Assembly: GCA_029056055.1 (NCBI GenBank)
Contig: JAIDCC010000048.1
Coordinates: 1-63,453, forward strand
Length of the DNA: 63,453 bases
Source: Duncaniella sp.
GTDB lineage: Bacteria; Bacteroidota; Bacteroidia; Bacteroidales; Muribaculaceae
Reading direction: 5' to 3'
The stretch's first letter is position 1, and each line of letters begins with the position of its first letter. Under the pieces are notes generated by a model, which did not search any database, had not been told where the DNA came from, and saw only the letters and a list, made by a program, of their open reading frames with translations. Position numbers and translations under genes: made by a program. Positions 3,975 through 23,015 of this stretch are shown piece by piece.

Positions 3975-4250
3975 ATGGACCACAAGACCTTTGTCAGCCG
4001 CCTGGCTGAACGCATGGGGTGTCCGGCCGAACAAGCCGCGACACTCGTCGACAGCCTGACGGGCGTGTTGCGCACCATCGGGAGCGAGCTTGACTCGGCC
4101 GCACTTCCCGGATTCGGCACATTCTCGACGGTGAAAACCGACGAGCAGATAGTGACCGACGAAACCACGGGCGCGCGCACCCTCGTGCCCCCGGCCATCA
4201 GAATGAGCTTCGCTCCGAGTGTCGTACTCCGCAAAAAAATCACACGATGA
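3975..4250 (+). CDS. HU-family DNA-binding protein
   Basis: 91 residues, the usual HU size. Two N-terminal helices (about 1-40) are followed by LPGFGTFST, the HU turn before the sheet, and by an arm region carrying TTGARTLVPP with Pro-Pro near where HU/IHF insert a proline into the minor groove; the end FAPSVVLRKKI resembles the HU C-terminal helix. It probably binds and bends DNA. Its last four bases (ATGA) overlap the start of the next gene, which also begins with an HU fold, so the two are translationally coupled and may form a heterodimer (inference). Confidence 0.85.
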   Translation: MDHKTFVSRLAERMGCPAEQAATLVDSLTGVLRTIGSELDSAALPGFGTFSTVKTDEQIVTDETTGARTLVPPAIRMSFAPSVVLRKKITR

Positions 4251-5854
4251 ACGAAAAAATTCCCGTAGGGCAGATAGCCCGACTGCTTTCGCAACAGGCC
4301 GGAGTGTCGCTTGCGTCGGCAGAACTATTCATCAAGGCGTTTTTCGACGTTGCGGCGCAGACACTGATGAGCGGCGAACGGCTGAAAATCAAGGGCCTCG
4401 GCGAGTTTGAGGTGGATGCCTCGAACGCCGACAACCCCGTGACGTTTACGCCCGATGCCGACTTGGCCGCGTGGCTCAACGCTCCGTTTGCCGAGTTTGA
4501 GCCCGAGGTGATAAGCGACGACATCACCGAGGAGGCTCTCGAAGGTGTTGGCACTCATGTAGACGTAGCTGCCCCTGATACAGTTGTCGCCGTAGAGGAA
4601 ACACCGGTTGACGCAGCCGAAAGCACCGAAGAGGTTGTGGAGGTTGCCGCGACACCCGAAACGATTGAGCCTGCCGATGAGGAGACAGTTGCTGAAACTA
4701 CTGTCGGCGCGGCTGAGGTTACAGAGGTGATTGTTGAGACTCCGACAGCTCCCGCTGAGGAGAAACCTGTGGAGACAGAGGCGGTTGAGACCGTTGCCGA
4801 GACGCCGGTAGCACCCGATGAGGTGAAACCGGCGGAGACAGAGGCGGTTGAGACGATTGCCAAGACGCCGGCAGCACCTGCAGAGGTGAAACCTGCGGAG
4901 ACCGAGGCGGTTGAGGCCGTTGCCAAGACGCCGGAAGCGCCCGCAGAGGTGAAACCGGCGGAGGTTGAGAAGGATGAGACGATTGCCGAGACGCCGCAAG
5001 CTCCAGCTGAGGTGAAACCCGCAGAGGCTGAGAAGGTTGAGGCCGTTGCCGAGACGCCGGAAGCTCCTGCAGAGGTGAAACCCGCGGAGGCTGAGAAGGT
5101 TGAAATGCCGACGCCTCCCGCACCCCCGACGTTTACGCCTGCAGCTCCCATCAATCTCGAAAAAGCAAACGATGACGAGGCTGCCGACACCTCCGCTGCC
5201 GTTGCCGCCGTTGCTGCGGTTGAGGAGACTCCCGCGACCACCGACGACTCGCTTGAAGAAGATGAGGAGCTGATGGTCGGCCCGACGGAAAATCGCCGTT
5301 CCGACGGCCCGGGTTTCGGTTTGGGCGTGTTCATTGGTCTTCTCGTAGGTCTGGCGTTAGGCGCCTGCATCACCTACTTTGCCATGGGCATAATTGAAAA
5401 CAAAGAAGTGACGTATGCACCTGTGGTGGAAGAGAATATAGGAATCGAAGATTTGTATAACGTATCCACGCCCGACACGGTGACGGAAGAGCAGCCCGCT
5501 GAAAGTGCCGACTCAACCGAGACCGCGCCTGCGGCTCAGGAAGAAAGCACTCCGCAGCCTGAAGCGCAAGCCGCTCCGGCAGCCGCAGCGACTGATGAGA
5601 AAGCCGTGATAGAAGTGGTGCAACCCAACTACAATCTTGCCAAGATGGCCAAGAAGCACTATGGCGAGAAAAGTTTCTGGGTGTATATCTTCGAGGAAAA
5701 CCGAGACAAGCTCAAGAGTCCCGACGACCTCAAGCAAGGCATGAAACTCGTCATCCCTCCGGCGTCGAAGTATGGCATCGACGCAAAAAATCCGGCAAGC
5801 GTCAACGCAGCCAAAGAAAAAGAAAAGCAACTGTTTGCACAACAGAAACGATAG
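4247..5854 (+). CDS. HU-fold domain fused to repeats, a membrane segment and a LysM-like domain
   Basis: 535 residues. Residues 1-85 form an HU-like fold (helices, then GERLKIKGLGEFEV) in which the DNA-binding beta arm is almost gone. Residues about 162-287 are six 21-residue acidic/Pro repeats (core APAEVKPAE). A glycine-rich membrane helix follows at about 355-382 (VFIGLLVGLALGACITYF). The C-terminal part has a LysM-like module at about 462-510 (LAKMAKKHYGEKSFWVYIFEEN) and a charged tail. There is no N-terminal signal, so the HU part is predicted cytoplasmic and the LysM part periplasmic. Function is unknown; a link between nucleoid and cell wall is an inference. Coupled to the small HU gene upstream. 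Confidence 0.85.
   Translation: MNEKIPVGQIARLLSQQAGVSLASAELFIKAFFDVAAQTLMSGERLKIKGLGEFEVDASNADNPVTFTPDADLAAWLNAPFAEFEPEVISDDITEEALEGVGTHVDVAAPDTVVAVEETPVDAAESTEEVVEVAATPETIEPADEETVAETTVGAAEVTEVIVETPTAPAEEKPVETEAVETVAETPVAPDEVKPAETEAVETIAKTPAAPAEVKPAETEAVEAVAKTPEAPAEVKPAEVEKDETIAETPQAPAEVKPAEAEKVEAVAETPEAPAEVKPAEAEKVEMPTPPAPPTFTPAAPINLEKANDDEAADTSAAVAAVAAVEETPATTDDSLEEDEELMVGPTENRRSDGPGFGLGVFIGLLVGLALGACITYFAMGIIENKEVTYAPVVEENIGIEDLYNVSTPDTVTEEQPAESADSTETAPAAQEESTPQPEAQAAPAAAATDEKAVIEVVQPNYNLAKMAKKHYGEKSFWVYIFEENRDKLKSPDDLKQGMKLVIPPASKYGIDAKNPASVNAAKEKEKQLFAQQKR
4730..5107 (+). repeat. Six tandem 63-bp in-frame repeats
   Basis: Six consecutive units of 63 bp encode 21-residue variants of [IV]AxTPxAPAEVKPAExExVE. 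The units are diverged at the DNA level but remain in frame, so they are a protein linker and not a CRISPR or satellite. Confidence 0.9.
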
Positions 5855-22943: not shown

Positions 22944-22976
22944 AAAAAAAAAATTACTCGTCGTCGCGACGAATAA
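22944..22976 (-). terminator. Intrinsic terminator upstream of parA
   Basis: On the minus strand a 10-bp stem with one mismatch (22967-22976 with 22954-22963, loop of 3) is followed by ten T (22953-22944), a textbook intrinsic terminator. It lies about 65 bp downstream of a promoter-like sequence on the same strand. Confidence 0.75.
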
Positions 22977-23010
22977 CTTTCTTACCTTAAATCTAATACC
23001 ATGAAAAACT
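22944..23010 (-). ncRNA. Candidate short transcript or attenuated parA leader
   Basis: A transcript from the promoter at 23016-23047 would begin near 23010 and stop at the terminator ending at 22944, about 67 nt. It has no ATG-initiated ORF. It may be an independent small RNA or the terminated leader of parA. Inferred from promoter and terminator spacing alone. Confidence 0.4.
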
Positions 23011-23015
23011 TGTTG

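Follow-up and report, generated by a model that had tools for sequence, protein, structure and literature searches.

A pair of overlapping genes in Duncaniella sp. most likely encodes an asymmetric HU heterodimer that is anchored through the membrane to peptidoglycan. The pair lies in the window, the 63,453-nt stretch of DNA analyzed here, which belongs to a genome of 2.88 Mb. A long protein in which an HU domain is followed by an acidic linker, a transmembrane helix (TM), and a LysM domain, and which has a small HU protein as its partner, constitutes a conserved family. The best single explanation for this family, to which we give about an even chance, is a nucleoid-envelope link, in which the anchored, asymmetric HU pair holds DNA near the membrane and the wall. 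To our knowledge, chromosome positioning and segregation in gut Bacteroidota are poorly known, and a direct link from DNA to peptidoglycan would be unusual, if true.

In the window, the locus consists, in order, of a proS-like open reading frame (ORF; 492 aa, named by eye), the small HU gene (+ strand, positions 3975 to 4250), the long HU gene (+ strand, 4247 to 5854), and a gene for a glutamine-amidotransferase-type protein (629 aa). The HU genes share a 4-bp ATGA start/stop overlap (4247 to 4250). The small protein, a putative dimer partner of 91 aa, matches PF00216 at 41.3 bits and keeps both the arm and P72, the equivalent of HU Pro63. The long protein has 535 aa. Its HU domain (4247 to 4501; residues 5 to 78, or 7 to 81 in the AlphaFold2 model) scores above the curated PF00216 cutoff, matches HU in fold, has an arm of only 12 residues, and runs into the motif NAPFAEFE (residues 78 to 85), of which N78, P80, F81, and F84 are invariant in a 28-row alignment. 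Part of the linker, whose net charge is -52, is encoded by a 63-bp tandem repeat (4736 to 5103). A single TM follows at residues 357 to 375 by hydropathy (5315 to 5371; the model has a helix at 358 to 383), and the C-terminal domain (about residues 446 to 507; 5582 to 5767) is predicted to adopt the beta-alpha-alpha-beta fold of LysM. No N-terminal signal is visible. The overall pTM of the model is low (0.34), and the predicted architecture is well supported module by module, by profiles and by the AlphaFold2 models. A first-pass annotation of this DNA had proposed each of these features, namely, an N-terminal HU-like domain without a signal peptide, a nearly absent HU beta arm, an acidic repeat linker, one membrane helix, a LysM-like C terminus, and the 4-bp overlap, and all of them have held up. 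It had also named two outcomes that would speak against it. The first, a non-HU fold for residues 1 to 85, is ruled out by PF00216, the model, and the fold match; the second, both ends on one side of the membrane through a signal peptide or a second TM, is ruled out by hydropathy, topology being judged here from sequence. A promoter and terminator scan of the window returned nothing useful. Elsewhere in the window, positions 22944 to 23011 of the - strand match Rfam RF04319 (BTncRNA_FopS), a small RNA family of Bacteroidetes, at 57.3 bits (cutoff, 56).

The arrangement recurs across genomes, which rules out a one-off or an assembly accident. Among 61 genomes around the window, 41 match: the window's own genome, 25 of 26 in its genus, all 10 from further genera of its family (Muribaculaceae, f1 in our numbering), and 5 of 24 others in its order, Bacteroidales. 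Full-length relatives were found in families f26 and f48 in a phylum sample of 296 genomes, and the full architecture is present in at least 26 of the 148 sampled genomes of the order, the window's genome included, a patchy distribution. The comparison covers 79 distinct long proteins: the first passes contributed 57 (including two plasmid-labeled Bacteroidaceae records), and the order sample added 22. They come from the window's order and from one family of another class (class by tool labels), f48, which we guess to be Balneolaceae; f48 counts refer to the f48 genomes taken in, which are part of those with matches. Left out of the counts were L009, L010, and L023, which are cut by contig ends; L005, L044, L074, L080, L082, and L091, which are repeat loci; L073, which is a LysM fragment only; and the truncated L006 (uncultured Muribaculaceae) and L147 (from the genus with fused HU domains described below). 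The HU-family records L036 (NZ_OY725888.1) and L037 (OY726008.1) are labeled as plasmids and may be mislabeled chromosome pieces, since the HU pair sits among housekeeping genes (in L036, tsaD, rpmB, ftsY, and rimO, as annotated).

All 79 long proteins have an N-terminal HU domain, which is double in one of them (G413), and in all 79 the best LysM stretch, located with models built from family members, falls in the C-terminal half. The linker is net negative in 78. The first-pass annotation had placed the HU domain inside and the LysM domain outside, and the sequence signals agree with this topology: none of the 79 has an N-terminal hydrophobic stretch, 78 have one TM (the remaining protein peaks at a hydropathy of 1.53 versus the threshold of 1.6), and the N side of the TM carries more K/R than the C side in 58, equal numbers in 15, and fewer in 6.

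Selection of the loci used only the long protein, not the small HU. Immediately upstream, and in the same orientation, 78 of the 79 have a separate small HU (21/22 in the order sample and 57/57 in the first passes, of which 55 were found by script and two, L013 and L018, by reading the loci). Relative to the long ORF start as called, the end of the small HU gene ranges from 31 bases ahead to 23 bases past, a 4-bp overlap being commonest (n = 57). In the 79th homologue, G413, both HU domains lie in one ORF. The same HU-HU fusion, still attached to TM and LysM, is found in 19 of 19 complete loci of this genus, which rules out a sequencing error. The survey of co-occurrence therefore bears out the pairing that the first-pass annotation had suggested: the two genes are conserved together, adjacent in 78 homologues and fused in the other one and its genus. 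We regard the pairing of the small HU with the long protein as well supported, and in the unfused species the two would form a heterodimer.

Outer neighbors of the pair vary: the window's genus has a proS-like gene, several Bacteroidales have ftsY-rimO ahead of the pair and MoxR-Bat genes behind it, and three f48 genomes have an aconitase-like gene (by eye) ahead of it, so the conserved unit is the pair and not the neighborhood. In L036, L110 to L113, L121, and L122, all Bacteroidales, the pair lies just before a cluster of the MoxR-DUF58-BatD-VWA type, with one gene in between in L122; in the window, the glutamine-amidotransferase-type gene occupies the place of this cluster. In a tree of 68 HU domains that took in 31 of the pairs, the 31 long rows and the 31 small rows each formed one group (support of 99/99 and 97/87, respectively), each spanning both classes. 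On this tree, the long and small HUs have been separate partners since before the lineages split or exchanged the pair.

A small HU that is encoded with, and probably dimerizes with, a membrane protein bearing a domain of wall-binding type could also be part of a regulatory device, in which the membrane-bound subunit would keep the small HU in place until proteolysis or a wall signal frees it to act as an ordinary nucleoid protein or regulator. We consider this improbable, because fusion of both HU domains to TM and LysM throughout the complete loci of the G413 genus leaves no free small subunit unless the chain is cut.

P72 of the small HU is invariant in a 57-row alignment and aligns with the proline of canonical HUs of the same genome; overall, the DNA-kinking proline at the tip of the arm is kept in 97 of 97 small or first HU subunits (57/57 and 21/21 separate proteins and 19/19 fused ones). 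Among long subunits, every one of the 26 from f48 retains this proline, as do 14 of the 21 in the order sample. Another residue takes its place in the whole set of four Bacteroidaceae/f26 proteins, in L032 (window's family), and in L087, L095, L096, and L098; within f20, L093 keeps the proline and L035 replaces it. The arm is deleted altogether in 25 of the 26 long subunits that the first set has from the window's family, as well as in L085 and L088 of the same family and in L099, while the second HU domain of the 19 fused proteins has 7 to 16 residues in its place. The window's own long subunit, with its 12 residues, has no beta arm with an intercalating proline. Because every small subunit examined keeps its proline and the long subunit often loses the arm or the proline, it is the tethered side that bears the loss in several families. 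Net charge averages -3.9 for the 28 HU pairs of the window's family, -6.3 for the 19 of the fused genus, and -1.6 for the 26 of f48; it is +7 in other Bacteroidales pairs and +4 to +12 in six canonical homodimers. As a proxy, charge is unfavorable to DNA binding by the pair in the window's family and favorable in the other Bacteroidales pairs. The nucleoid end is the weak step of the proposed link, since in the window species the HU pair carries a net negative charge and a full arm is confined to the small partner.

The AlphaFold2 model of the natural fusion, with an overall pTM that is again low (0.47), shows an IHF-like pseudo-dimer resembling the IHF heterodimer. Structurally, the fused HU pair is matched best by chains from doublet microtubules and from a Mycoplasma gliding machine, which come ahead of or level with IHF; Foldseek alone ranks single-chain IHF low (E values of 0.014 and 0.069; rmsd of 9.6 and 7.8 Å). 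These matches, together with the net acidic charge that three of five groups show for the pair and the loss of the long-subunit arm or proline in several families, suggest the main rival explanation, which we find distinctly less probable and still serious: the tethered HU pair would be a protein-binding scaffold rather than a DNA binder, an envelope platform that recruits a cytoplasmic partner to the wall and for which the HU-type CCDC81 proteins of doublet microtubules would be a precedent. Homologues of CCDC81 sit at microtubule inner junctions (PMC11961760 and PMC10105768). A scaffold would, however, account poorly for the kinking proline preserved in every small or first HU subunit, or for the long-subunit proline and positive charge that many other pairs in the order retain. 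When the same model is aligned with VIA-align, moreover, DNA-bound single-chain IHF has a lower rmsd (2.6 to 2.7 Å) than the microtubule rows (4.2 to 4.8 Å).

At the wall end, the window protein has no match to Pfam PF01476 at an E value of 1, and Pfam LysM matches 4 of 55 homologues at an E value of 0.01, with L036 scoring 20.1 bits versus a cutoff of 20.9. The best PDB profile matches of the domain are Kbp and the LysM domains of phage and injection-system baseplates. Peptidoglycan binding stays presumptive, since Kbp, whose LysM is the nearest among solved structures, binds potassium and is not a wall binder. On this evidence, the domain might instead be an ion-binding or oligomerization module like that of Kbp, which we think very improbable: it follows a TM with a positive-inside bias in 58 of 79 proteins, the LysM domains of NlpC/P60, Ecp6, and MltD are matched as well, and relatives in family f38 hold a SPOR domain, also of wall-binding type, at the same place. 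The position of the domain fits a wall-binding role, and the LysM domain may grip peptidoglycan.

Taken as a nucleoid-envelope link, the two genes would make an obligate, asymmetric heterodimer of the HU/IHF type, held at the cell envelope. In the window's lineage, the small subunit would bring the only complete arm with a kinking proline. To this the large subunit would add the other HU body, an extended acidic tether in the cytoplasm, a single TM, and, in the periplasm, a LysM domain holding on to peptidoglycan. The complex would keep DNA of the chromosome, either by itself or together with the proteins bound to it, near the membrane and the wall. Contact with DNA, contact with peptidoglycan, and tethering are all putative roles of the pair. 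A broader proposal, for which our confidence falls somewhat short of even, is that this is an ancient paired nucleoid-to-wall tether of Bacteroidota, in which a dedicated asymmetric HU heterodimer, present as one chain in one genus, couples DNA to peptidoglycan by way of one membrane helix and the LysM domain and helps to place or segregate the chromosome with respect to the growing wall. The pair is a small, testable two-gene system that is present in tractable Bacteroides, and the fusion in one genus offers a natural single-chain HU heterodimer. That the fused pair resembles chains from cilia is relevant to the question of how a fold for packing DNA came to serve as a structural element of other machines. 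Searches of the open-license PMC literature, several of them with narrow combined terms, found no description of an HU-TM-LysM protein or pair, including in passages of PMC10434189; such searches do not establish absence from print.

Several known systems share parts of this design. IHF and HU heterodimers, and the engineered single-chain IHF (2iie), likewise combine two different HU-fold subunits, and the fused model aligns with them over residues 1 to 168; the window-type pair differs in being membrane and wall anchored, in that one subunit may lose its arm, and in its often net acidic charge. By fold and profile score, the window protein belongs to the HU superfamily. A 2017 analysis of this superfamily by Burroughs and colleagues reportedly covered HU-CCDC81_bac_1/2 and SPOR proteins of Bacteroidota. 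These proteins (PF18174/PF18175) resemble the window protein in having one or more cytoplasmic HU domains, one TM, and a domain of wall-binding type outside. In contrast, the window protein has LysM, with no SPOR match at an E value of 1; the second HU of its family comes from the upstream gene, either as a separate product or fused to the N terminus; and its HU scores as PF00216, with PF18175 reaching only 16.6 bits versus a cutoff of 35. Neither its scores nor its domains place it in the HU-CCDC81/SPOR group. The same genome does encode an HU-CCDC81 protein (L041, G000:C12; 308 aa) with tandem domains scoring 65.8 bits for PF18174 and 51.1 bits for PF18175; by eye it has a TM and a SPOR-like end, which Pfam did not call as SPOR. 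Three f38 proteins (L124, L125, and L126) combine an HU domain with a short arm, an acidic stretch, a hydrophobic segment (by eye), and SPOR at 38 to 43 bits (cutoff, 21), and none has a small HU in the approximately 300 bases upstream. They may be cousins and not true domain swaps, since their HU scores better as HU-CCDC81_bac_2 (42, 32.8, and 33.8 bits versus a cutoff of 35).

HubP/FimV of gammaproteobacteria is not known to have an HU domain. HubP has a periplasmic LysM, one TM, a large acidic cytoplasmic repeat region, a link to the origin via ParA1, and a TPR end (PMC8789113). HubP/FimV and the window protein are alike in that a single chain unites LysM, TM, and acidic repeats and differ in that the parts run in inverse order; a TPR or FimV C-terminal region had no Pfam match at an E value of 1 in the window protein. 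HubP, which links the origin region to the pole by way of a periplasmic LysM, would offer the parallel for tethering, and by analogy the pair may work most like HubP and the HU-TM-SPOR proteins.
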